Under the pieces are notes generated by a model. It worked only from the letters and a program-made list of their open reading frames with translations. It was not told where the DNA came from and made no database searches. Below, piece after piece: positions 45,546 to 57,600 of a stretch of DNA of 64,000 nucleotides (the stretch's first letter is position 1; each line of letters begins with the position of its first letter). The position numbers and the translations under genes were made by a program. Source of the stretch: Thiohalobacter thiocyanaticus (lineage in GTDB: Bacteria > Pseudomonadota > Gammaproteobacteria > Thiohalobacterales > Thiohalobacteraceae); assembly GCF_002356355.1 (NCBI RefSeq), contig NZ_AP018052.1, positions 2,294,001 to 2,358,000 on the forward strand. Direction: 5' to 3'.

Positions 45546-46451
45546 TCAAGCCTTCGAAGTGAACGGCACTAATCCAAACCTTGATCTTCCCATTAATCCT
45601 AGCAATACACCAACACCACTAAGAAGAAGCAGTAGCGGTGCTGGTAGAGGCACTGCACTTACAGCTAATGCTACACCATCCTGTGAAGCGGCACTGAATC
45701 CACTCAGATTCGTTGCATCCCCCGTCATCGGGTCAATTGCAAAGGTTCCCCACATATTCGTCCCGTAGAGCGTCCCGTCTCCGTAGGCTAGCGCCACCCC
45801 GTCTTGGGAGGCCGCGTTGAATCCACTCAGATTAGCTGCATCTCCCGTCAACGGGTCAATTGCGAAGGTACCCCACATATTCGTCCCATAGAGCGTCCCG
45901 TCTCCGTAGGCTAGCGCTACCCCGTCCTGCGAAGCGGCACTGAATCCGCTCAGATTCGTTGCAGCCCCGGTCAGCGGGTCAATCGCAAAGGTACCCCACA
46001 TATTCGTCCCATACAAAGTCCCGCCCCCGTAGGCTAGCGCCACCCCGTCCTGCGAAGCGGCGCTGAATCCACTCAGGTTCGTTGCAGTCCCGGTCAGCGG
46101 ATCGATTGCAAAAGTGCCCCACATATTCGTCCCATAGAGCGTCCCGTCTCCGTAGGCTAGCGCCACCCCGTCCTGCGAAGCGGCACTGAATCCGCTCAGA
46201 TTCGTTGCAGTCCCGGTCAGCGGGTCAATCGCAAAGGTACCCCACATATTCGTCCCATACAAAGTCCCGCCCCCGTAGGCAAGCGCTACCCCGTCCTGGG
46301 AGGCCGCATTGAATACGCTAAGATTCGCTGCATCTCCCGTCAGCGGGTCAATTGCAAAGGTTCCCCATAAGTGTGTCCCATATATCGTGCTTGCTAAAAC
46401 GTTCTTGGTAAGGACCAATATTACAATAAATGAGATTTTGTATATTTTCAT
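45546..46451 (-). CDS. Secreted protein of six 41-residue repeats with a VPLPA C-terminal sorting signal
   Basis: 301 residues. The signal peptide is 1-20 (MKIYKISFIVILVLTKNVLA). Six nearly identical 41-residue units follow (22-264). Each reads like TLYGTNMWGTFAIDP, then LTGTATNLSGFSAASQDGVA, then LAYGDG. Unit length and the turn-rich GTxxWGTFAIDPLTG pattern suit blades of a six-bladed beta-propeller. The tail VPLPAPLLLLLSGVGVLLGL plus MGRSR is a PEP-CTERM-type sorting signal (motif, membrane helix, basic end). That implies an exosortase elsewhere in the genome. Function unknown; extracellular matrix or surface role possible. Confidence 0.8.
   Translation of the reverse strand: MKIYKISFIVILVLTKNVLASTIYGTHLWGTFAIDPLTGDAANLSVFNAASQDGVALAYGGGTLYGTNMWGTFAIDPLTGTATNLSGFSAASQDGVALAYGDGTLYGTNMWGTFAIDPLTGTATNLSGFSAASQDGVALAYGGGTLYGTNMWGTFAIDPLTGAATNLSGFSAASQDGVALAYGDGTLYGTNMWGTFAIDPLTGDAANLSGFNAASQDGVALAYGDGTLYGTNMWGTFAIDPMTGDATNLSGFSAASQDGVALAVSAVPLPAPLLLLLSGVGVLLGLMGRSRFGLVPFTSKA
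45660..46388. repeat. Six tandem 123-bp repeats inside the secreted-protein gene
   Basis: Landmark words such as CCGTAGGCTAGCGC recur every 123 bases (45781, 45904, 46027, 46150, 46273). Unit-to-unit changes are few, and some (YGGG or YGDG at unit ends) alternate, which suggests recent amplification, partly of pairs. Confidence 0.9.
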
Positions 46452-46552: not shown

Positions 46553-47647
46553 TCAGCCACTATTCCACTTCGAGAAGTACGTTTTCAGCCGTTCCACCGT
46601 ATGTCGCCATTTTGGTGTAGTAGGCTGGCAAACCGTATTCTGATTGCCAAACAAGCCAATTTCGTTCACCGCCTTGGACTCAGGCACCGTATCCAGCCAG
46701 TCAACACGAACGAAACATTCTGCCTTATCCGGATCATCAGCATTTTTCTTGTACAGTTCTGCAAATTTGAGTACGTCCAGCGCAGGCTTTTCACCTTCAG
46801 CGGTTTGCACTGTAAACTCCTTGACCGGCTGCACGGCCTCCGTAACACGCCCGACACCGACATAGCCCGTCTTTGGCACTTTCACCCATACCCGATCGCC
46901 AGGTGATAGCAGTTTCAACGTCTGGCTGTACCAACTCCCGCCACCCGCGCTGATAAAGCCATACTGGCGCGCATCTTCCCAACTACGGGAGTTCATATCC
47001 CCAAAGGAGACATAATACTCTCCATTCCAGGGCTCGTTCTCTGCCTTGGACTTGCTGGTACTTGCTACATTCACCTGTGTCTCGCCGGGATCAATCAGCC
47101 AGGCGCGACTCAAAAATTGCTCATCGCCATGCAGGAATACCTGGAAGAAAACAGCATTGATAGCAATATCGCGGGCATTGAGATAACCGATAATACGTTC
47201 AGTAGCGGGATCGAGTTCTGCGGCAACAATAATGATCTGATGCGATTGGTTAAGGTTTTCCTCATCCAAATCCGCGCCAAAATGATGCTGAAAATCCTCC
47301 TCAAGCTTCCCACCGTTGGAAAATCGCTGATAGATTTGTGCGATTCTATCAGTAGTCAGCTGCTCTACCCACGAGGCATAGTCCAGCGACTGAGCGATGA
47401 CCTCGCGTGGGGTGCGGTTTCGCTTGAGTTCAATCAACACAAGCGAGCTATCGGGCGCAATAGCCAGCAGGTCGATGCGACCACCATGACTGGTGGACTC
47501 TTGCCTGCCAATCAACAGCCACTCACCGGAAAGGATGCGAGGATCAGTCACAATCATATCTTCCAACTGCTGTTCACTCGCGAGGTGGCTGGTGGGAAGT
47601 GCGACGGGGGCTTCACCGACCTTCCAAATAGCGTGTTGTATCGGCAT
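46553..47647 (-). CDS. NucS/DUF91-like nuclease with C-terminal EVE/PUA-like domain
   Basis: 364 residues. The N-terminal PD-D/EXK fold reads GRIDLLAIAPDSSLVLIELK with D59, E73 and K75, plus a Q-rich helix (EVIAQSLDYASWV, Q86) as in endonuclease NucS. A middle part (about 125-200) precedes a C-terminal region with LLSPGDRVWVKVPKTGYVGV, similar in layout to EVE/PUA-like modules that bind modified bases. AAGGA lies 8 bases before the ATG. Fusion of such parts is common in restriction of modified DNA. It sits in the defence island next to the DRT gene. The EVE call is inference. Confidence 0.7.
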   Translation of the reverse strand: MPIQHAIWKVGEAPVALPTSHLASEQQLEDMIVTDPRILSGEWLLIGRQESTSHGGRIDLLAIAPDSSLVLIELKRNRTPREVIAQSLDYASWVEQLTTDRIAQIYQRFSNGGKLEEDFQHHFGADLDEENLNQSHQIIIVAAELDPATERIIGYLNARDIAINAVFFQVFLHGDEQFLSRAWLIDPGETQVNVASTSKSKAENEPWNGEYYVSFGDMNSRSWEDARQYGFISAGGGSWYSQTLKLLSPGDRVWVKVPKTGYVGVGRVTEAVQPVKEFTVQTAEGEKPALDVLKFAELYKKNADDPDKAECFVRVDWLDTVPESKAVNEIGLFGNQNTVCQPTTPKWRHTVERLKTYFSKWNSG

Positions 47648-47765
47648 TATTATTTTCCTTGATTGAGCTAGCCACAGTCACAGTAGTCGAACGATCTGGC
47701 TCAATGAGTATAACCTGGCCTGATTCCGCCTACTGGCGCCACAAAAACACTTCCTATTGACACTG

Positions 47766-50700
47766 TTACCCAGCAGGTTGTGTTTTAATTTCTTTGAGCT
47801 TTGTACTTGCCTTTCTTTTAAATGCGGCGAGATCAAGATCTGCCACATTTATTGAAATCTGGTCTGTGCCGTGTGCATGTGAAATAAGACGCTCATACGG
47901 TTGCTTATATGGTGCCTGAATTGTAGAGCCCCCAAATTCGCCTTTATTCACCAATGCGACATGCTGATACATATGATAATGCAGAGCCGAGGCCATTGTA
48001 TCGAAGGTGGTTACGTCTTTGTTATGCGCAAGTATAACAAATAACTCTGACTTCCCCTTCAAATCACTAGCCAGCTTCAAGTCTGTTGCGTCATAGCAAA
48101 TTGACGCCGTTATCCTGAATGGCCCTTCGTCAAATCCATCGACTTCTATGATGTGCTGACAAGGCCTTTCAGGACTAACCCCAAGGTCAATCTCGTTGTC
48201 CGTAGGAAAAAGCTTGCCCTGATCACGCACTATCCATTGTCGCCCCGTTATTCTGTAATCCGGTATCAACCATCTAGCCAGGTTGACCAACTTCCCATTT
48301 CTTTCCGTAAACACCATACCGGCAAGTATCATTGAACGTGTTTTATCCGCCAGCTGCTTCAGAAGGTCTAAATCATCGAGGTGAACACCTAGTTCTGGAA
48401 ACACGATTAGGTCTGAAAACGGCCGATCTCCGTTGTTATCTGCATGTATTTTTGCTGCTAGCGTTTTATAAGTAATCCTGCATAACCGAGCCACATGTTC
48501 GCGGTTTGTATTTTTGATTAACGTGGAATTAAGCTCCGGATCTGCCTTCGAAAAGTCCGATCCTTTTGGTAACAATTGTTGTACGGTCACCAACCTGAAT
48601 TCCCTGGCCGCGCTCTCTCTCGGGCGCTGAACATTGGTAATTAGTCCGGGCATATCCGACGCGTAGCAATACGTGTCGTTCAGCACACCAAGCCGCGTTT
48701 CCACGGAAGCTTGCAGAGAATCCAGATCCTCAATCAGTCGAATGTCATCATGAACGACATGCGTAGATTCGAAACCGGGCCATTGCAGGCACTTTCTTAT
48801 CAACTCGGCTACCCAGTCCGTTACGGTAGCATACTCACCAACTAACGATTCTGGTGCATGCATCATCCCCATGCGCCGCTTAAACCATCCCGTTCGTAGC
48901 CCCTTATAACCGACAATTTTGCTCTTCTTCCACCGATTACTTGTAAAGTCATTCGAGCCAACAACGGCAGCACGCAATATCATTCCTATCCAATAGATCT
49001 CCGCTGAGTCCGAGATTTCCGAATTAATCCACGATGGCGTATCAAAGCGCGGGTCGGTATTGTGTATACTTTTAGCAGTGGATTTTAAACTCACTTCAGG
49101 CCGCCAAAGCTCTGCCCAATCGCTCTTCTTGGCTTGCACTTGCCCAATGATCAATTTGTCAGGAGCTATTCCTAGCGCAAGGCGGTCACAACGAATACCA
49201 TCAATAAGCGCTAAAACCAGCTTTAATAGACCCGCTTCATGGATAAAGCCGTTGTTATCAGAGACGATTATTTTAGATAGGCGCTGCTGGACGTTTGGGC
49301 TTGGCACACCACCACTCGTAACAGGGATCGCCCACTGAAATTCATCCAGCAATTCCTTATTTGTTTTCTGGCGCTTTAGGCGTCTCCATAAACTAATCCA
49401 GAAATCCCCACCGCGAAGGGCAAAATCTTCAAGCACTCGCCTTTTCAGTGGCAAATCTACCACATCCATTTGCTCAGCCAGGAGAGATGCTACCGAATCA
49501 TTATTTCCCGTGATCTGCGCTGCTACTTCGTATAGCGCGAGGTTCTGGCGATGAAGCTTCATTGCTGAACCAGCGAGGATGGTATGCAACATCCTTTGTA
49601 TAGACCCGTCTGATTCCTGGCGCCGGACGGGTTTCTGCATAACGGCCAGCAACAGAAGCGCCTGTCTCTCTACAAACCCCGGCACCGAAGTTGCTGCAAT
49701 CGTCCTTTGCGCATAGCGTGTGGCAAGATCGAGCATGGCGTCTGGGTCCGATGTCGACGGATAATCAATCCGTTGAAAATATCCATGGAAATCCACACAA
49801 CTTCGGAATAGATCAGCGAGTAGATATTCAGCCTGTGCAGCGGTGATAGCATCAGAATCGCCACCACCGAAGTTTGTGCGGCGGAATATCGCTTCGAAAA
49901 CAGGCTCTGCCAACAGGGGAGAGGGAAATATTTCAAGGGCTTTCCGCAAAACCAGGGCCAACGATGGATCTTGCATCCACGCCCAAATAAGCTTCTTCGC
50001 GAGCAGCTCACTTTCATTATCAAGGGGAGTAACGCCTGTATCCAATACCTCACCCGCGATCTTGCGCTTGTTACGCATCACAGCCTCAAGTCGGTTTGCT
50101 GCAAAGCGCTTCAACGTGTCATGACGAACATCGTGATCAAATTTCGCCAATTTGAGCAGCGCGTTATCCTTCGTCATCTCTGTCATTACAGGGATATCAT
50201 CAGTTTTCAGTGTCAACAATCCCTCAAGTACACCCATGACGCTATCGAGAGTATCTCTGTCAGCAGGGCCGCTAATATCCTCTTGAAGACTCCTAATTCG
50301 TTCCGATAGTGTTCCCTTGTTATCGAGATCAGACAACGTGGTAACCTGAGTTTTTCCTTCATTTAACTCAAGAGATTCACCACCGAACTTGTGTAGCTTT
50401 TCGCAAACCCAATGGTTTACCTTATCCCCCAAAAACTCGCTGTCAATATCTACATCCAAACTGAAAACAAGCCGAATATCGTCCACATAACGGCAATAAT
50501 CATGTAGAACAACTCCGGTGTTATTCGGAAGCGACTTTCCGATCTGCTTTCCAATAGCGGCATCAAACTCATGAAGATAGGCATTGGCGAAAAATCCCGC
50601 TGCAACCAGACCCTGCGGCAAACCGTTTCCGAGTTTGACAGATAAACTCTCCGCGACCTGATGATCTTTGTCACGCCAGCGCCAATCGAATATTCGACCC

Positions 50701-51476
50701 AAAGCTGACCAGAATTCCGAATCTAGCTCTTCCTCATAAAATTCCCGAGCGAGCTTTTGCAATCGTTCACTAAGAAGCTTCCGATCAATGCAATCGTAGA
50801 ATTTCGACAGATCGAGACTGACGATAAATACATGCTCTTCATCAGTCTGGTTCAACGCAACCGAGCGCCCAATAGCTACAGGGCGTTTGAGAAATGCCTG
50901 ATAGTCTGTAAAGAACTTCCTATAAGTTTCACCGTTCCCCCACCGGAACCAGGCCTGATCGTCTCTCCAATCACACATAAGTCGGTTGCCATAGCTATAT
51001 ACCTTATTATTTCTGGCTTCGAATGGATTGGAATTATCACAATCACCTTGGGCGGTTTCTACAACATCAGCCAAGCAAAGCATAGCGGCTGTGGCCCACG
51101 TTTGGTCTCGAATACTCAAGTGTGCCAGGGGCCTGATCGGTGGTTTATTAAGACGAACCTTAGCGGCCTCATCATCTAAACGACTTTCCGCTAACCAGCC
51201 ATGTTTCTCATCAATAACCCATTTTTCACTCTTCGCAGCGGGGATAAGCTCTACCGGATACGGACATACATCGACCAAACGAATATCGTCGGCCCAACTC
51301 TTGGCGTTGGCTTCCAAACCGAGCGCAGATATATCGAGAGCCAAAGTATCGGCGTACCAATTGTGCGTACGCATATAGGCGTGGGTCTTCTTCCATGCCT
51401 GCGCCATTACCACACTGTCTGCAAGATGTTCAAGCGTTGGCTTTAGTTTTCTATACTTGTCTGCAATGAGTTTCAC
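47766..51476 (-). CDS. Reverse transcriptase-nitrilase fusion, defence system DRT type 1 (UG1)
   Basis: 1236 residues. The N-terminal reverse transcriptase has FIVSLDLSKFYDCID (motif A, D222), GLPQGLVAAGFFANAYL (285-301) and RYVDDIRLVF with the catalytic YVDD at 330-333. A long helical middle (about 400-1000) has no recognised domain. The C-terminal carbon-nitrogen hydrolase has the glutamate in VFPELG (E1028) and the nucleophile cysteine in ASICYD (C1127); a lysine at about 1088 is a candidate third residue but is not exactly placed. This architecture is the one described for DRT type 1 antiphage reverse transcriptases (Gao and colleagues, 2020). The start is a GTG. It follows hsdS by 58 bases on the same strand, so it is probably co-transcribed with the restriction system. 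Confidence 0.88.
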   Translation of the reverse strand: MKLIADKYRKLKPTLEHLADSVVMAQAWKKTHAYMRTHNWYADTLALDISALGLEANAKSWADDIRLVDVCPYPVELIPAAKSEKWVIDEKHGWLAESRLDDEAAKVRLNKPPIRPLAHLSIRDQTWATAAMLCLADVVETAQGDCDNSNPFEARNNKVYSYGNRLMCDWRDDQAWFRWGNGETYRKFFTDYQAFLKRPVAIGRSVALNQTDEEHVFIVSLDLSKFYDCIDRKLLSERLQKLAREFYEEELDSEFWSALGRIFDWRWRDKDHQVAESLSVKLGNGLPQGLVAAGFFANAYLHEFDAAIGKQIGKSLPNNTGVVLHDYCRYVDDIRLVFSLDVDIDSEFLGDKVNHWVCEKLHKFGGESLELNEGKTQVTTLSDLDNKGTLSERIRSLQEDISGPADRDTLDSVMGVLEGLLTLKTDDIPVMTEMTKDNALLKLAKFDHDVRHDTLKRFAANRLEAVMRNKRKIAGEVLDTGVTPLDNESELLAKKLIWAWMQDPSLALVLRKALEIFPSPLLAEPVFEAIFRRTNFGGGDSDAITAAQAEYLLADLFRSCVDFHGYFQRIDYPSTSDPDAMLDLATRYAQRTIAATSVPGFVERQALLLLAVMQKPVRRQESDGSIQRMLHTILAGSAMKLHRQNLALYEVAAQITGNNDSVASLLAEQMDVVDLPLKRRVLEDFALRGGDFWISLWRRLKRQKTNKELLDEFQWAIPVTSGGVPSPNVQQRLSKIIVSDNNGFIHEAGLLKLVLALIDGIRCDRLALGIAPDKLIIGQVQAKKSDWAELWRPEVSLKSTAKSIHNTDPRFDTPSWINSEISDSAEIYWIGMILRAAVVGSNDFTSNRWKKSKIVGYKGLRTGWFKRRMGMMHAPESLVGEYATVTDWVAELIRKCLQWPGFESTHVVHDDIRLIEDLDSLQASVETRLGVLNDTYCYASDMPGLITNVQRPRESAAREFRLVTVQQLLPKGSDFSKADPELNSTLIKNTNREHVARLCRITYKTLAAKIHADNNGDRPFSDLIVFPELGVHLDDLDLLKQLADKTRSMILAGMVFTERNGKLVNLARWLIPDYRITGRQWIVRDQGKLFPTDNEIDLGVSPERPCQHIIEVDGFDEGPFRITASICYDATDLKLASDLKGKSELFVILAHNKDVTTFDTMASALHYHMYQHVALVNKGEFGGSTIQAPYKQPYERLISHAHGTDQISINVADLDLAAFKRKASTKLKEIKTQPAG

Positions 51477-51534
51477 GGCCGCATAATTCCTTATGGCGCT
51501 TCATGCGTCATTATTACCGCTCGTTTTGCGTACC

Positions 51535-53289
51535 TTAGGCCACAGCTTGCTCTACGATGGCGTCGGCGAAATGCCTTTGGGTGTTTTGGGCGTCGGCGAG
51601 GCGCGACTTGAGCGCGTCGCACAGGAACATGAGTTCATCGACTTTGGCGACGATGCGGTGTTGTTCTGCAAGCGGTGGCAACGGAAAAATAGTACTAGCC
51701 AGGCGATTTAGTGCCATTTTTTGTACGCCGACTTGCTTGGTCTTATCTATAAATTGTTCCTGGCAAAATGCGGTAGAAAGCGCCTTGTATAGATAAATTT
51801 TTGAAACGAAGAATGGAGTAAGCCGTGCGGCATTTTCTGTTAAGTTCATTCCATCAAATTTATCCGGCACAAGGCCGCACTTTCCAATGGTCGCGCCAAC
51901 AATAGTCATGTAGATGTCGTTTTTAGTAATGATGTACTGACTAATCTTCGAGTACATCGCTTCGTCGATGTACCTTAAATCCGAATCATCAATTGCCCCA
52001 TCTTTCATATCGCTAACGCGTATGTAAATATAAGGGGTTGGATTAGACAAAAGTTGGTAGCCGTTCGATACACGCTTACCCCCTCGAATGTGAACCACCT
52101 GACCAAGCCTTACCCATTCCCATCCGTTCTTTTGCTCAAATGGCTTTTCATCCTCGCCTATCTCGGGCAACTTTTTCTCTTTCCTTATCTTTTTCTCTTT
52201 AACCAACCGCGTTTTTTCTTTGGCAATCTTTTCCAGCAACACACTCGCTGGTTCGTCGTTAGGGTCCTGGGGGACAAGCTTGCCCATGATGGCGAGTTGG
52301 AGGATGGTTTGTTTGAGTTGGTCGATACTGTGCTCGGTGGCGAACAGGGTGTCGAAGTGGCTGGCGATGCGGCTCCAGGCTTCGTCGAGGTCGTCTGCCG
52401 ATTCGACGCTCGTCAGCGTGGCGAGCAGGGTCTCGACCAGGGCTTGGTGGGCTTCGAGGCTGTGGGTCTGTTGTTGTTCCAGTTGGTCGCACAGAGCCAT
52501 GAGTTCGTCGACTTTGGAGACGATGCGGTGTTGTTCTGCTAACGGAGGAATTACCACAGGCAGTATATATGCTTCGTTACGACTTAGACCTGGCTTTATT
52601 CCTTTTCCTAAATTATCTAGCCCAAGTGTATGAAAGAGTTTAAATGTGAACTCCAAATCCATTGCACTAGGTGGAACGACACTGTAAGCAACATCAGTTA
52701 CCCAGCAGCCATCACTTAGACATAAATTCAAAGCCCCAGCAGATCCTTTTCTACCAACCACTATGCACGGGCTCTCTATACTGTATTCGTTGTGCGTGCC
52801 TACTACACCATTTGAACCATATACAGGATATTCTCCGGTATTACTTCTTTTTACTTGGGGTAAATTGTTACCATATTCAAGTTCGAAAATATTTCCAAAT
52901 CGAGCCCACTCCCATCCGACAGGCAATGCATATGGAATTTCATCTTTAGAAATTTTAGAAAGTGGTTGCGGTTTTTTAATTTTTCCTTCTTTTATCAACC
53001 GCGTCTTTTCGTCCGCGATCTTTTCCAGCAACACGCTTGCCGGTTCGTCGTTGGGGTCCTGCGACACCAGCTTGCCGCGTACGGCCAGTTCAAGGATCAG
53101 CTCGCGGAGTTTCTTGATGCCGTAGCCTTGCTGCTTGCCGTTGCTGCCACGCCCGGTGATGGACTTTGTGAGGATGGCCGAGGTCCAGAGGTCAAGGTTA
53201 TCGGTGACTGGATTCCGGCTTTTGCCGGAATGACAAGGCTGATTGTATTCCGGATTCACGCCTGTGCGGGGATGACGCTTTTCGTTCAT
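51535..53289 (-). CDS. hsdS: Type I restriction specificity subunit HsdS
   Basis: 584 residues with two target-recognition domains (about 120-260 and 385-545). Conserved repeats flank each: LRELILELAVRGKLVSQDPN and QTILQLAIMGKLVPQDPN before, IPPLAEQHRIVSKVDELMALC and LPPLAEQHRIVAKVDELMFLC after. The TRDs decide the bipartite methylation/cleavage site, which cannot be read from sequence. The start at 53289 is supported by the four-base overlap with hsdM (ATGA). Residues about 5-27 (HPRTGVNPEYNQPCHSGKSR onward) are the translation of a family C palindromic repeat, not normal HsdS sequence. Confidence 0.95.
   Translation of the reverse strand: MNEKRHPRTGVNPEYNQPCHSGKSRNPVTDNLDLWTSAILTKSITGRGSNGKQQGYGIKKLRELILELAVRGKLVSQDPNDEPASVLLEKIADEKTRLIKEGKIKKPQPLSKISKDEIPYALPVGWEWARFGNIFELEYGNNLPQVKRSNTGEYPVYGSNGVVGTHNEYSIESPCIVVGRKGSAGALNLCLSDGCWVTDVAYSVVPPSAMDLEFTFKLFHTLGLDNLGKGIKPGLSRNEAYILPVVIPPLAEQHRIVSKVDELMALCDQLEQQQTHSLEAHQALVETLLATLTSVESADDLDEAWSRIASHFDTLFATEHSIDQLKQTILQLAIMGKLVPQDPNDEPASVLLEKIAKEKTRLVKEKKIRKEKKLPEIGEDEKPFEQKNGWEWVRLGQVVHIRGGKRVSNGYQLLSNPTPYIYIRVSDMKDGAIDDSDLRYIDEAMYSKISQYIITKNDIYMTIVGATIGKCGLVPDKFDGMNLTENAARLTPFFVSKIYLYKALSTAFCQEQFIDKTKQVGVQKMALNRLASTIFPLPPLAEQHRIVAKVDELMFLCDALKSRLADAQNTQRHFADAIVEQAVA
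53209..53277. repeat. Family C repeat inside the hsdS coding region
   Basis: GATTCCGGC-tttt-GCCGGAATGAC (53211-53234) and GGATTCACGCCTGTGCGGGG ATGACG (53252-53277) match the intergenic family C units. Read on the minus strand they stay open in frame with hsdS. Confidence 0.8.
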
Positions 53290-54764
53290 ACCCTCTCCCC
53301 ACTCAATGCCTGTTGCAGAATGTGCTTGAGCTGGTTGCGCAGATCGCTGATTTCGGCCTGTTGCTTTTCATATTTCTGCAACAGTTCGTCCGGGTCGTGG
53401 CTGACCTGCTCGCCGACGTGAGGGTTTTTGATGTCGAGGTTGTAGTTGCGGGCGATGATCTCATCGATGCCGACCTTCCAGGCCTGTTCGGTCTGTTTGC
53501 GTTTCTTGAATCCATTGGCCTCTTCGCCCCACCATTTGATTTCGGCCTCAAATTCCTCGAAACGCATGGGCTTGGTTTTGTTGTAGCTCTTGACGCCTTC
53601 GGGATAGGGGTGTTCGTAGTACCAGACCTGTTTCGTAGGCGTGCCCTTGGTGAAGAACAGCAGGTTGGTCTTGATGCCGGTGTAGGGATTGAACACACCG
53701 TTGGGCAGGCGCACGATGGTGTGTAGGTTGCACTCTTCCAGCAGGGTCTGTTTGAGACGGGTTTTCATACCTTCGCCGAACAGGAAGCCATCTGGCAGCA
53801 CTACAGCGGCACGGCCGCCGTCCTTGAGCAGCTTGATAATGAGCGCCATGAATAGGTCGGCGGTTTCGCGGGTGCGGAAGTGGGACGGGAAGTTGTTTTC
53901 GATGCCGTCTTCTTCCATGCCGCCGAAGGGCGGGTTGGTGACGATGACGTTGACGCGGTCGGCGTTGCCGTAGTCCTTGTAAGGGCGGCTCAGGGTGTTG
54001 TCGTGTCTGATATTGGTAGGGGTATCGATGCCGTGCAGGATCATGTTGGTGACGGCCAGCATGTGCGGCAAGGCCTTTTTCTCCACACCGTGAATCGATG
54101 CTTGCAGGGTATCTTCGTCCGCGTGGCTTTTTACATAATTCTCACGCTTGTGATCGATGGTGCAGGTAAGAAAACCGCCGGTACCACATGCGGGATCGAG
54201 CACTTTCTCGTCCAGTTTGGGGTCAACGCGGTTGACGATGAAGCGAGTGACGGCTCGTGGCGTGTAGAACTCTCCGGCGTTCCCAGCGCTTTGCAGATCT
54301 TTGAGGATTTGCTCGTAGATACTGCCGAAGGTGTGACGATCACTCGTATTGTTGAAGTTGATTTCGCTGATCTTGTTGATTACCTGGCGGATCAGTGTGC
54401 CGGACTTCATGTAGTTGTAGGCGTCTTCGAACACTCCCCGTACCACCTGGGCGCGCTTGCCCTGGGCGCCGCTGGTGGGCAGCTTTTCCTTCAGATAGGG
54501 GAACAGTTGCACGTTGACGAAATCGGCCAGCTCCTCGCCAGTCATGCCTTCGGGGTCAGCGGCCCAGGCGCGCCAGCGCAAATGCTTGGGTAGCGGCGAT
54601 TTGTAGTTGTCTTCCAGCAGCTCCAGCTCGGCCTCGCGGTCGTCGAAGATCTTGAGGAAGAACATCCACACCAACTGACTGATGCGCTGTGCATCGCCGT
54701 CAACGCCGACATCCTTGCGCATGATGTCCTGGATGGATTTGATAATGCCGCTAACGTTGCTCAT
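53286..54764 (-). CDS. hsdM: Type I restriction methyltransferase subunit HsdM
   Basis: 492 residues. N6-adenine methyltransferase with SAM motif I VLDPACGTGGFL (about 190-200) and catalytic motif IV NPPF (about 272-275). The N-terminal helical domain (DIMRKDVGVDGDAQRISQLV) and AGEFYTPRAV are typical of HsdM. With HsdS it methylates host DNA; with HsdR it cuts unmethylated DNA. hsdR is 26 bases upstream and hsdS overlaps downstream. Confidence 0.97.
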   Translation of the reverse strand: MSNVSGIIKSIQDIMRKDVGVDGDAQRISQLVWMFFLKIFDDREAELELLEDNYKSPLPKHLRWRAWAADPEGMTGEELADFVNVQLFPYLKEKLPTSGAQGKRAQVVRGVFEDAYNYMKSGTLIRQVINKISEINFNNTSDRHTFGSIYEQILKDLQSAGNAGEFYTPRAVTRFIVNRVDPKLDEKVLDPACGTGGFLTCTIDHKRENYVKSHADEDTLQASIHGVEKKALPHMLAVTNMILHGIDTPTNIRHDNTLSRPYKDYGNADRVNVIVTNPPFGGMEEDGIENNFPSHFRTRETADLFMALIIKLLKDGGRAAVVLPDGFLFGEGMKTRLKQTLLEECNLHTIVRLPNGVFNPYTGIKTNLLFFTKGTPTKQVWYYEHPYPEGVKSYNKTKPMRFEEFEAEIKWWGEEANGFKKRKQTEQAWKVGIDEIIARNYNLDIKNPHVGEQVSHDPDELLQKYEKQQAEISDLRNQLKHILQQALSGERV

Positions 54765-54790
54765 TTAGTCCTTACTCGCCTCAATTCTGG

Positions 54791-57142
54791 TCATGCAGAT
54801 TCATCCGGTTTAAACAGCTCCTGCTCGAGCTCTTCGATGGCGTGGTCAAAGCTGTTCTTGCCGCCAAAGACGTCATTGATAATTTCCACTGGGGTGCCTA
54901 TGTCACTGAACGGTTTCAGTTTCAGCACCTTGGCACTTTCCAGGGTGCTGATGCCCTCATCAGCGTACTTGTCCAGCAGCGCGGTGAGCACGGCGCGGAC
55001 CTGCTCGCCGTATTTGGTGAAGTAGTTGCGCTTTTTGACCTTGTTGGCCCGCTCCTTCCGCGTGAGTGGTGGCTGATCATAAGCGATATGGCAAATGAGA
55101 TCGAAGTCGCCATAGTCCTTGCCAATTTCAGCGGCGAGATTATCCAGTACGATCCCGTGCTCTTCCAGCTCGTCGAGGATGGCCTGTTTTTTCTTCGCGC
55201 TATGCCAGCGGTTGAGGAACTCGTCTAGCGAGGCGTATTCCGACTGGATTTGCTTGCGGCTAAAGTCCTTGTAGGACTCGGTGATCAAATTGCCGTCCGG
55301 GCCAATGTATTCAATACGCTCGGAGATGATGCGGGCATCGACGCCGCTGACGCGAACCTTGTAGGTGCCGGGTTCTTCTTCGATGCCGCCTCCCTCGTCA
55401 TCACCCTCCTCTGGCGGCGGGTCCGGTGGTACGGGATCGTCGTCATCGCCGGGTTCATAGACCACGGCCGCCTCGCCATCGAAGTCCGGGTCGCGGAACA
55501 GTTGGGTGGCCTTCTTGAAGTCCATGATGGTGAAGAACCACTTGTTGTTGTCTTCGTCGATGCGGGTGCCACGGCCGATGATCTGCTTGAAGATAGTCAT
55601 CGAGGTGATGGTCTTGTCCAGCACGATGAGCTTGCACGTCCTGGCATCGACGCCGGTGGTGAGCAGCTCCGAGGTGGTGGCGATGACGGGAAACCTGCTT
55701 TCGGGGTCGATAAAGTTATCCAGCTCGGCCTTGCCCTCGACGCTGTCCCCGGTGATGCGCATGACGTACTTGGGGTTTTCGATGGCGATTTGGCCTGCGG
55801 CATTGACGATGGCGGCTCGCATGCGTTCGGCATGGTCGATGTCTTCGCAGAAGACGATAGTCTTGGCATAGGGATCGGTGGCGTTGAGATATTTCATGAC
55901 TCGTTTGGCGACCAGCTTGGTACGCTGGTTCAGGACCAGGATACGGTCCATGTCTTTCTGATTGTATTCACGTTCGTCAATTGCCTGGCCCAGGTCGTCC
56001 ACCATACCGGGCGGGGGCGTCCAGCCGAGGACGTCCTTGTCGATGTCGATGCGCACGACCTTGTACGGCGCGAGGAAGCCATCCTCGATGCCCTGCTTGA
56101 GGCTGTAGGTGTATACCGGCTCGCCGAAATAGGTGCTACTGGAGACGTATTTGGTCTCCTTGGGGGTAGCGGTCAGGCCGACTTGAATTGAATCAGAAAA
56201 ATACTCAAGGATTTCCCGCCAGGCGGAATCATCCGCCGCACTGCCACGGTGACATTCATCGATGACGATCATATCGAAGAAGTCACGTGAAATATTCTTG
56301 AAAATCTTGTCTTCCTCGTCCGGCCCGGTGATCGCCTGATACAGGCCAAGGTAGACTTCATAGGACGGGTCGATCTTGCGGTTTTTGATCTTGGTCATCA
56401 CTGCGCCAAAGGGCCTGAAGTCGTTGACCAGAGTCTGATCGACGAGGATGTTGCGGTCGGCGAGGAACAGGACGCGTTTAACTTTCCTGGCTTTCCATAG
56501 CCGCCAGATGATCTGGAAGGTCGTGTAGGTCTTGCCGGTGCCGGTGGCCATAACAAGCAACACGCGCCTTTTACCACTGGCCACCGCCTCGATCGTGCGG
56601 TTGATTGCCTCCACCTGGTAATAACGTGGTCCTTTGCCCGACATGTCTTCATGGTAGGGCTGAACGACCAGCGGCTCGGCCTGATCGTCAATACCGCGAA
56701 AGGTCTTGTACCTTTGCCAGAGGGCATCCGGCGTGGGGAAAGCCTCAAGGGGCAACTCGGTTTCGATCTCTTCGCCTGGCGCGGGTACCTTGTTGTGCAC
56801 GGCGAAGGCATCGCCATTGGAGCTGAAGGCGCTGGGGACTTCCAGGATCTCAGCATAGCCCAATGCCTGCTGCATACCCTGGCTGACGGTATGGTTGTTG
56901 TCTTTGGCTTCCACCACGGCGATGGGAATACCCGGCTCCCAGGAGAGCACATAGTCAGCGAATTTTTTCTTCTTCTTGTTACGTGAGGACATGTTGCCCC
57001 GGACGATGACCGGGCCCGGCGTCAGGGTGACTTCGCGCCGAATCTGTCTGACAGGTTCCCAGCCCGCATCCTTTATGGCCGGGGAGATGAACAGGTCGCA
57101 GATATCGGTCTCACTGAGAGATTTTTTTTCTTTATTATCCAT
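54791..57142 (-). CDS. hsdR: Type I restriction endonuclease subunit HsdR
   Basis: 783 residues. The N-terminal nuclease has the PD-D/EXK core ADYVLSWEPGIPIAVVEAK (D63, E78, K80). The translocase has Walker A ATGTGKT (about 200) and DECH box (about 294), with helicase motifs through about 560 (GRGTRIDEDN). The C-terminal HsdM-binding helical part follows an acidic linker (DDDDPVPPDPPPEEGDDEGG). Size and domain order match the EcoEI-type R subunits. First structural gene of the restriction operon, 34 bases after the Xre regulator. Confidence 0.95.
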   Translation of the reverse strand: MDNKEKKSLSETDICDLFISPAIKDAGWEPVRQIRREVTLTPGPVIVRGNMSSRNKKKKKFADYVLSWEPGIPIAVVEAKDNNHTVSQGMQQALGYAEILEVPSAFSSNGDAFAVHNKVPAPGEEIETELPLEAFPTPDALWQRYKTFRGIDDQAEPLVVQPYHEDMSGKGPRYYQVEAINRTIEAVASGKRRVLLVMATGTGKTYTTFQIIWRLWKARKVKRVLFLADRNILVDQTLVNDFRPFGAVMTKIKNRKIDPSYEVYLGLYQAITGPDEEDKIFKNISRDFFDMIVIDECHRGSAADDSAWREILEYFSDSIQVGLTATPKETKYVSSSTYFGEPVYTYSLKQGIEDGFLAPYKVVRIDIDKDVLGWTPPPGMVDDLGQAIDEREYNQKDMDRILVLNQRTKLVAKRVMKYLNATDPYAKTIVFCEDIDHAERMRAAIVNAAGQIAIENPKYVMRITGDSVEGKAELDNFIDPESRFPVIATTSELLTTGVDARTCKLIVLDKTITSMTIFKQIIGRGTRIDEDNNKWFFTIMDFKKATQLFRDPDFDGEAAVVYEPGDDDDPVPPDPPPEEGDDEGGGIEEEPGTYKVRVSGVDARIISERIEYIGPDGNLITESYKDFSRKQIQSEYASLDEFLNRWHSAKKKQAILDELEEHGIVLDNLAAEIGKDYGDFDLICHIAYDQPPLTRKERANKVKKRNYFTKYGEQVRAVLTALLDKYADEGISTLESAKVLKLKPFSDIGTPVEIINDVFGGKNSFDHAIEELEQELFKPDESA

Positions 57143-57176
57143 TTATATCGCTTTCTGGGAGTCGATAGCGGGCTAT

Positions 57177-57398
57177 TTAATGTGGTCCGGGCTGATCTCC
57201 GGTCACGAGCTCAAATAATTCACCCACTTCGCAGTCAAACAGGTGGCACAATTTCTCCACCGCATCCAGTTCTACCCGCTGGGCGGTTTCGTTGTAGAGG
57301 CGCGTGACAGTGCTCCTGTTGAGCCCGGTTTGGCGGGCGACGTCCATTATTTTCATTTTACGCTCCCCCATCATACGGGAGAGATGGCAGCGGATCAT
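57177..57398 (-). CDS. Xre-family regulator of the restriction operon
   Basis: 73 residues from the ATG at 57398 (MIRCHLSRMMGERKMKIMDV), one helix-turn-helix (MDVARQTGLNRSTVTRLYNE). It is the first gene of the leftward hsdR-hsdM-hsdS-DRT operon and likely works as a controller protein, delaying or tuning restriction. A 15-bp dyad lies 28 bases upstream. Confidence 0.88.
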   Translation of the reverse strand: MIRCHLSRMMGERKMKIMDVARQTGLNRSTVTRLYNETAQRVELDAVEKLCHLFDCEVGELFELVTGDQPGPH

Positions 57399-57426
57399 TT
57401 GACTCTGCGCTCCTGAAAAGCAGGAT

Positions 57427-57441
57427 GTTATACAGAATAAC
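57427..57441. promoter_or_regulatory. Dyad upstream of the Xre regulator
   Basis: GTTAT-acaga-ATAAC, 5-bp arms. Candidate autoregulatory operator for the Xre protein. Confidence 0.4.
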
Positions 57442-57600
57442 ATTACTTGCTATTGGGCTAAAGGGGCAATAAAAGCTGTCCCCACAGATGGCAGGCAATA
57501 GGTTCAGCGTTCAGGCAGTTGCGTTAAGTTCGCTGTGGCATTCAAAATAAACCAGAGGGGCGCTCCGCCACGAGGATGCATAAGTAACCTATTGGTCATA

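Follow-up and report, generated by a model that had tools for sequence, protein, structure and literature searches.

A DRT1 reverse transcriptase and a predicted nuclease as probable read-through cargo of an EcoAI-type restriction operon

Introduction

In Thiohalobacter thiocyanaticus, the gene for a DRT type 1 reverse transcriptase (DRT1) lies behind a type I restriction operon, which raises the question of whether distinct defences share a single switch at this locus. The 64,000-nucleotide stretch analysed here (contig NZ_AP018052.1, positions 2,294,001 to 2,358,000), hereafter the window, carries on its minus strand, in this order, an Xre-type regulator gene, hsdR, hsdM, hsdS, the DRT1 gene, and PDC-S11. 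A first-pass annotation had placed the regulator and the hsd genes ahead of a gene fusing a reverse transcriptase (RT) to a nitrilase, 58 bases after hsdS on the same strand, an arrangement with which both the coordinates and family searches agree. It had also delimited the locus as 47766-53289 and proposed that two defences are involved. While that span covers hsdS and DRT1, the whole unit extends over approximately 46553-57443, and while restriction and DRT1 do adjoin, the unit probably holds three defences, not two, because PDC-S11 follows DRT1.

The answer that best accommodates the evidence below is that the locus is likely one defence operon, in which DRT1 and PDC-S11 are 3' cargo expressed by read-through and the encoded proteins act as separate layers.

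Recurrence of DRT1 beside restriction genes

The first-pass annotation had proposed a comparison of the neighbourhoods of DRT1 (UG1) genes. GTDB species genomes were scanned with an alignment of six DRT1s, and 77 loci were read of 206 matching stretches, with flanks of up to 10 kb per side; the addition of plasmid and viral loci and of the window gave 83 DRT1 loci. Because the sample was chosen by similarity to the window's DRT1, with a ceiling of 80, locus frequencies are not population estimates, and because the neighbour-assignment models were built from these loci, distant restriction genes can be missed. In 11 of the 83 loci, the window included, the gene immediately upstream of DRT1, in the same orientation, is an EcoAI-type hsdS (the 10 others are L039, L041, L043, L055, L066, L087, L093, L094, L103, and L106). 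Most of the gaps between hsdS and DRT1 measure 8-63 bp, with the caveats that L066 is cut by a contig end, that hsdR of L055 is in two frames, and that mechanically called starts of the open reading frames (ORFs) make the gap lengths of L093 and L103 uncertain; alignment of the gaps from eight loci revealed no shared element. DRT1 stands just upstream of hsdR in two loci (L033 and L065), and another kind of type I operon ends 11-137 bp before it in four (L045, L047, L056, and L091). A DISARM-like cassette of helicase and methyltransferase precedes DRT1 in L058, L059, L062, L072, L076, L085, and L090, and DrmD-DrmMI follows it in L050. Altogether, a methylation-based restriction module adjoins DRT1 on the same strand in 25 of the 83 loci, and six more carry a scar. 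The hsd-DRT1 pairing thus recurs (11 direct cases, six scars, four other type I operons, and two with DRT1 before hsdR), and it is not due to chance.

Several of these neighbourhoods merit separate mention. The DISARM-like cassette constitutes a second recurrent partner, with a large methyltransferase and mostly a third gene of ~660 aa that has no PADLOC match. In L033 (IMGVR_UViG_3300015370_001134, filed as viral), a CARF-AAA-HTH regulator, PDC-S14, DRT1, hsdRMS, and a PtuA-like gene follow one another in a row on one strand. In the Pseudomonas locus L065, hsdRMS lies downstream of DRT1, while the related L070 carries the scar of a very similar hsd operon upstream; the hsdR starts of the two share 83% DNA identity, which looks as though one and the same pair had existed in both arrangements.

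Genes may also come together by hitchhiking in defence islands, in which case a DRT1 with its own promoter would merely accumulate near co-travelling restriction genes and be expressed separately from them. Many DRT1s do lie in mixed defence islands that contain no hsd genes, and promoter-like matches occur inside the operon genes. Yet strand, order, and spacing are specific: in 10 of the 12 EcoAI-type operons within 10 kb of other DRT1s, hsdS is the last gene and stands directly upstream on the same strand. Several gaps are only 8-21 bp long, which leaves no room for a promoter outside hsdS, and the deletion scars described below keep DRT1 beside a remnant of hsdR or hsdS. Hitchhiking is therefore an unlikely account of the linkage.

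Deletion scars in front of DRT1

In each locus, the forward frames of the 2.5 kb upstream of DRT1 were searched with models of the HsdR N-terminus and the HsdS C-terminus. Six loci keep only an hsd remnant within 350 bp before DRT1 (L068, L070, L097, L052, L034, and L101). In L068, L070, and L097, the HsdR N-terminus is fused in frame to the HsdS C-terminus, and these fused frames, of 109, 95, and 80 codons, end 3, -4, and 10 bp from DRT1, respectively; L052 and L034 retain an HsdR piece only, and L101 an HsdS piece only. When all flanks were searched in six frames, isolated EcoAI-type pieces turned up nowhere else. The reading of the short "HsdR" matches, of 78-109 aa, as unrelated small genes was rejected; they are deletion scars.

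The DNA of L097 matches that of L094 at the start of hsdR, and the match resumes at the end of hsdS and continues into DRT1; ~5.7 kb are thus missing in L097. In the tree, L097 is sister to the intact L094 and L101 to the intact L103, while L034 falls inside a clade of intact loci. The DRT1s of the scar loci are full length and keep all catalytic residues, and in two scar/intact pairs the nonsynonymous divergence (dN) of DRT1 is 0.14-0.16 against a synonymous divergence (dS) of ~1.4-1.5, the latter being near saturation. DRT1 is under purifying constraint across these pairs. The scars read as losses of the restriction genes that spared DRT1 and left it behind the start of hsdR; of the two directions loss is the simpler, which the tree alone cannot prove. 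That they place DRT1 directly at the start of hsdR argues for read-through, and suggests that transcription beginning ahead of hsdR reached DRT1 and that DRT1 can persist once the restriction genes are gone. Furthermore, that DRT1 stays intact after the loss of hsd argues against its dependence on the restriction system.

This last point bears on the possibility of a guard function, whereby DRT1 would sense, in the manner of PrrC, whether the adjacent restriction enzyme is active or inhibited, and would kill the cell when restriction fails or leaves DNA products. DRT1 adjoins several methylation-based, DNA-translocating modules (EcoAI type, other type I, DISARM-like), and its incompletely known trigger involves a DNA helicase, Dda of T4; T4 escapes DRT1 by mutations in Dda (PMC13275509). 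PrrC in its type IC operon provides a precedent, and DRT1 resembles it in its position within or next to a type I operon. A guard of this kind would be kept only together with its restriction module, whereas DRT1 is intact in the six scar loci and alone in many others, and guard-like coupling is weakened by scars that keep DRT1 without hsd. The slot that DRT1 occupies also holds unrelated defence genes, and the histories of DRT1 and hsd disagree, as detailed below; we consider a guard function quite improbable. A looser version, in which products or inhibition of the restriction motor help to trigger DRT1 and so account for its repeated placement beside type I and DISARM-like modules, is rather improbable, and under it the scar loci would be cases where another trigger suffices.

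Separate histories of DRT1 and the hsd genes

Vertical co-inheritance of hsd and DRT1 was considered and is not supported: the Mantel r of DRT1 is 0.24 with HsdR and 0.31 with HsdM, compared with 0.84 between HsdR and HsdM, and a single clade of EcoAI-linked DRT1s is rejected by the approximately unbiased test (p 2.6e-28). EcoAI-linked DRT1s, intact and scarred, require at least nine changes on a 41-sequence tree. The large tree was built with FastTree, and the test tree by a quick IQ-TREE run without a mixture model. Pairwise comparisons illustrate the discordance. Between L106 and L041, HsdM is 86% identical and DRT1 46%; between the window and L094, L093, and L103, the values are 73-75% for HsdM and only 33% for DRT1, and between the window and L039, L041, and L043 they are 67% and 54-55%. 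Since the histories of DRT1 and HsdM disagree, the pairing arose or was reshuffled repeatedly, with DRT1 either entering the same slot many times or being exchanged in place.

The slot behind hsdS and PDC-S11

EcoAI-type operons of the window's class were also found through HsdM, independently of DRT1 (L161-L168). In L161, the closest backbone (HsdR 78%), hsdS is followed by a SIR2-like gene and a patatin; in L162 by AbiD; in L163 by PDC-S11, behind a 91-codon frame; in L164 by a GmrSD-Schlafen fusion; and in L165 by a regulator with weak similarity to RmrA and, farther along, DarG. No recognised cargo follows hsdS in L166 and L168, and L167 is cut. The slot after hsdS in EcoAI-type operons is thus a cargo bay for defence genes. 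DRT1 itself was found in none of the 369 sampled genomes of the window's class besides the window's own, and in none of the phage records.

Some type II restriction systems are known to cause addiction, and the varied cargo of this slot could be taken to mean that the restriction system stabilises linked genes by post-segregational killing, with DRT1 as a passenger. In the scars, however, the supposed stabiliser is gone and the cargo is kept, and almost all of the cargo identified consists of defence genes in their own right, which renders this explanation very improbable.

PDC-S11 occupies the same slot in other settings. On the viral-collection contigs L119-L122 it lies 10 bp after hsdS, and it is found behind type I genes without DRT1 on plasmids. 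DRT1 followed by PDC-S11, as in the window, occurs in L093, L098, and L103, and the complete order hsdRMS-DRT1-PDC-S11 is shared by the window, L093, and L103. With and without DRT1, its occurrence after type I restriction genes includes the window, L119-L122, L125, and L130.

The PDC-S11 profile matches NucS. In a structural model of medium confidence (predicted local distance difference test score, pLDDT, of 68), the N-terminal part matches NucS/EndoMS and the C-terminal part resembles YTH, DUF55, and EVE-like folds; folding without an alignment gave a useless model (pLDDT 35). YTH, DUF55, and EVE-like folds read modified bases in known proteins. PDC-S11 is probably a nuclease, and that it might be a modification-dependent restriction nuclease (type IV-like) is a reasonable guess.

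A complete DRT1

The 1236-residue protein of the window scores 1398 bits as Drt1a in the family search and aligns over its full length with PDB entry 9YFD (E 3e-285), which identifies it, by sequence, as a bona fide, complete DRT1. The RT motif YVDD at residues 330-333 and the nitrilase residues E1028 and C1127 were already correctly located in the first-pass annotation, and align with 9YFD. It had further remarked that the nitrilase lysine is not in the usual KxxL spacing; the lysine is nevertheless present, as K1088 in the motif RDQGK, and the alignment that the annotation had suggested for finding the third catalytic residue yielded both K1088 and a second glutamate, E1095. Residues Y330, V331, D332, D333, S402, E1028, K1088, E1095, C1127, and A1235 do not vary in any of the 82 DRT1 sequences compared, and K1231 is present in 81 of the 82. 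The count for the RT motif is biased because that motif was among the search patterns by which the 82 sequences were found, whereas S402 and the nitrilase glutamates, lysine, and cysteine were not. K1231 and A1235 correspond to the C-terminal K1219 and A1223 of 9YFD, which are needed for defence.

DRT1 has been shown to use a serine of its own as the primer for template-free DNA synthesis (Neville et al. 2026, PMC13275509). Its filaments are dormant and require DNA adducts, and upon infection it mounts an abortive response through the nitrilase domain (PMC13275509). Published DRT1 assays were carried out in E. coli MG1655, a strain with EcoKI. By homology, the mechanism of 9YFD would carry over to the window protein.

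Approximately 18% of drt1 genes are accompanied by Drt1b (PMC13275509). No Drt1b is present in the window, and none was found in the rest of the genome; it follows DRT1 in 12 of the loci read (for example L034-L036, L047-L049, L117, and L118), and L106 has hsd genes 5' of DRT1 and Drt1b 3' of it. The absence of Drt1b was considered as a defect and this was rejected, as most DRT1s are without it.

Organisation and control of the operon

HsdR of the window is of the EcoAI type, scoring 1139 bits against NF046051 (curated cut-off 550), HsdM matches N6_Mtase and HsdM_N, and HsdS contains two Methylase_S stretches; the restriction system is classed as EcoAI-type because the three subunits lie in one operon with HsdR above the cut-off. 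hsdM and hsdS overlap by 4 bp, and 118 bp separate DRT1 from PDC-S11 on the same strand (Table 1). A consensus scan of the coding strand of the hsdS-DRT1 gap (51534-51477) found no terminator-like or sigma-70-like match, and the weak promoter-like matches inside the operon genes are no more numerous than in shuffles. Three defences thus probably share one transcript.

At the head of the operon, the regulator gene corresponds to a mechanical ORF of 57443-57177, of which the ATG at 57398 is the likelier start. Just before this start lies a perfect palindrome, for which the chance expectation is 0.04 in the window with two mismatches allowed, and whose core occurs at one other place in the genome. 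Control by the regulator through this palindrome may be inferred. In L164, too, hsdR is preceded by an HTH_26 gene, so that the regulator goes with the restriction backbone.

Several observations weigh against a single read-through operon under common control. By the criteria used, 52 of the 83 DRT1s have neither an adjoining restriction module nor a scar. L034 retains an HsdR piece alone, 155 bp before DRT1, and may for that reason use another promoter, while L101 has no hsdR start. A promoter other than sigma-70 could hide in the 58-bp gap of the window. Finally, the hsd-DRT1 pairing does not include a conserved Xre gene. As most DRT1-linked operons showed none, the "one controller" of the first-pass annotation fits this locus, where an Xre gene does head the operon, but not the pairing in general, of which the regulator is no regular part.

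Table 1. Features of the restriction-DRT1 locus, in window coordinates.
Feature	Position	Strand	Details
Candidate operator for the Xre-like regulator	57425..57443	.	19-bp perfect palindrome (7-5-7), exact match
HTH_26 (Xre/Cro-type) regulator	57177..57398	minus	73 aa counted from likely start
hsdR, EcoAI-type type I restriction subunit	54791..57142	minus	783 aa
hsdM, type I methyltransferase	53286..54764	minus	492 aa
hsdS, type I specificity subunit	51535..53289	minus	584 aa, two target-recognition stretches
hsdS-DRT1 gap	51477..51534	minus	58 bp
DRT1 (Drt1a, UG1)	47766..51476	minus	RT, helical repeat region, and nitrilase domain; 1236 aa, GTG start
YVDD 330-333, RT active site	50478..50489	minus	D332/D333 align with D324/D325 of 9YFD
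S402, priming-serine equivalent	50271..50273	minus	aligned to S402 of 9YFD
E1028, first nitrilase glutamate	48393..48395	minus	aligned to 9YFD
K1088, nitrilase lysine	48213..48215	minus	in RDQGK, aligned to 9YFD
E1095, second nitrilase glutamate	48192..48194	minus	seven residues past K1088, aligned to 9YFD
C1127, nitrilase nucleophile	48096..48098	minus	aligned to C1116 of 9YFD
PDC-S11, second cargo gene	46553..47647	minus	364 aa, NucS-like nuclease domain and YTH/EVE-like domain

At its N-terminus, the HsdS frame has 25-40 residues (53170-53289, QPCHSGKSRNPV) outside the type I models, which start at residue 28; a dispersed repeat may be translated here, and HsdS may actually start further inside the frame. 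The G+C content of the operon genes (46553-57398) is 47-56%, lowest in DRT1 (47%) and hsdS (48%), compared with 61% for the window, which is consistent with a foreign origin. The window contains no tRNA that could mark an attachment site, and in an empty-site check by gene presence across 10 family members the right-flank gene was matched in none and the left-flank gene in three. The same genome encodes a second, distant type I HsdM of 37% identity (G000:C1:2150757-2152214). Beyond PDC-S11, a 301-aa protein (45546-46451) consists of near-identical repeats of ~40 residues (GTFAIDPLTG...DGTLYGTNMW) and ends in a hydrophobic tail, VPLPAP...LLLLSG, that resembles a sorting anchor.

A layered defence

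The most likely reading is that of a layered defence whose parts are co-expressed yet separable. The six genes from Xre to PDC-S11 would be transcribed as a single operon from a promoter before Xre/hsdR, with DRT1 and PDC-S11 reached by read-through as cargo in the 3' slot of the EcoAI-type operon. In the first layer, HsdRMS would restrict unmodified DNA; in the second, DRT1 would bring about abortive infection by means of protein-primed DNA synthesis on S402 and the nitrilase effector; and in the third, PDC-S11 would probably cleave modified DNA.

DRT1 itself was already known, as was the presence of defence genes within type I operons. DRT1 as a recurrent type I cargo, the scars, and the exchange of DRT1 behind related hsd genes were not found reported in a literature search that did not include the main UG/Abi survey (Mestre et al.). 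One neighbourhood thereby becomes a pattern with natural experiments: a defence slot was repeatedly entered by DRT1, or its DRT1 exchanged, and several lineages have had the restriction genes excised, with the cargo still in place behind their old start. Two questions become testable, namely the sharing of a promoter by layered defences and the link of the DRT1 trigger to restriction, and PDC-S11 is flagged as a candidate modification-dependent nuclease.

Comparison with known systems

Defence genes embedded in type I operons are known from EcoPrrI-PrrC and RptR-RMS-DarTG2 (PMC12255303, PMC12707154), both of which resemble the window in combining a type I operon with a second, cell-killing defence. 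In the RptR island, a small regulator at the head controls all genes, and the head regulator of the window is of the HTH_26 type. The location and nature of the cargo differ, however: PrrC and DarTG2 are placed between hsdS and hsdR, whereas the cargo of the window follows hsdS at the 3' end and is a reverse transcriptase. The defence reverse transcriptases AbiA and AbiK have been reported near restriction-modification genes, as single plasmid examples (PMC8934634). These belong to other RT classes and have no nitrilase domain, while DRT1 is found in a recurrent slot.

The DRT1 of 9YFD shares with that of the window the RT motif YVDD, the priming S402, the nitrilase residues E-K-E-C, and the C-terminal lysine and alanine. 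Unlike the window protein, it carries a tail of five residues past the sequence PAG, and it was treated as a single-gene system (PMC13275509), whereas the DRT1 of the window stands behind hsdRMS and is followed by PDC-S11. Systems in which DRT1 is paired with Drt1b (RTasTM) have the Drt1a protein family in common with the window, but not Drt1b. Lastly, PDC-S11 differs from NucS/EndoMS and YTH/EVE proteins in that a single protein, encoded behind type I operons, is predicted by the medium-confidence model to combine both folds.

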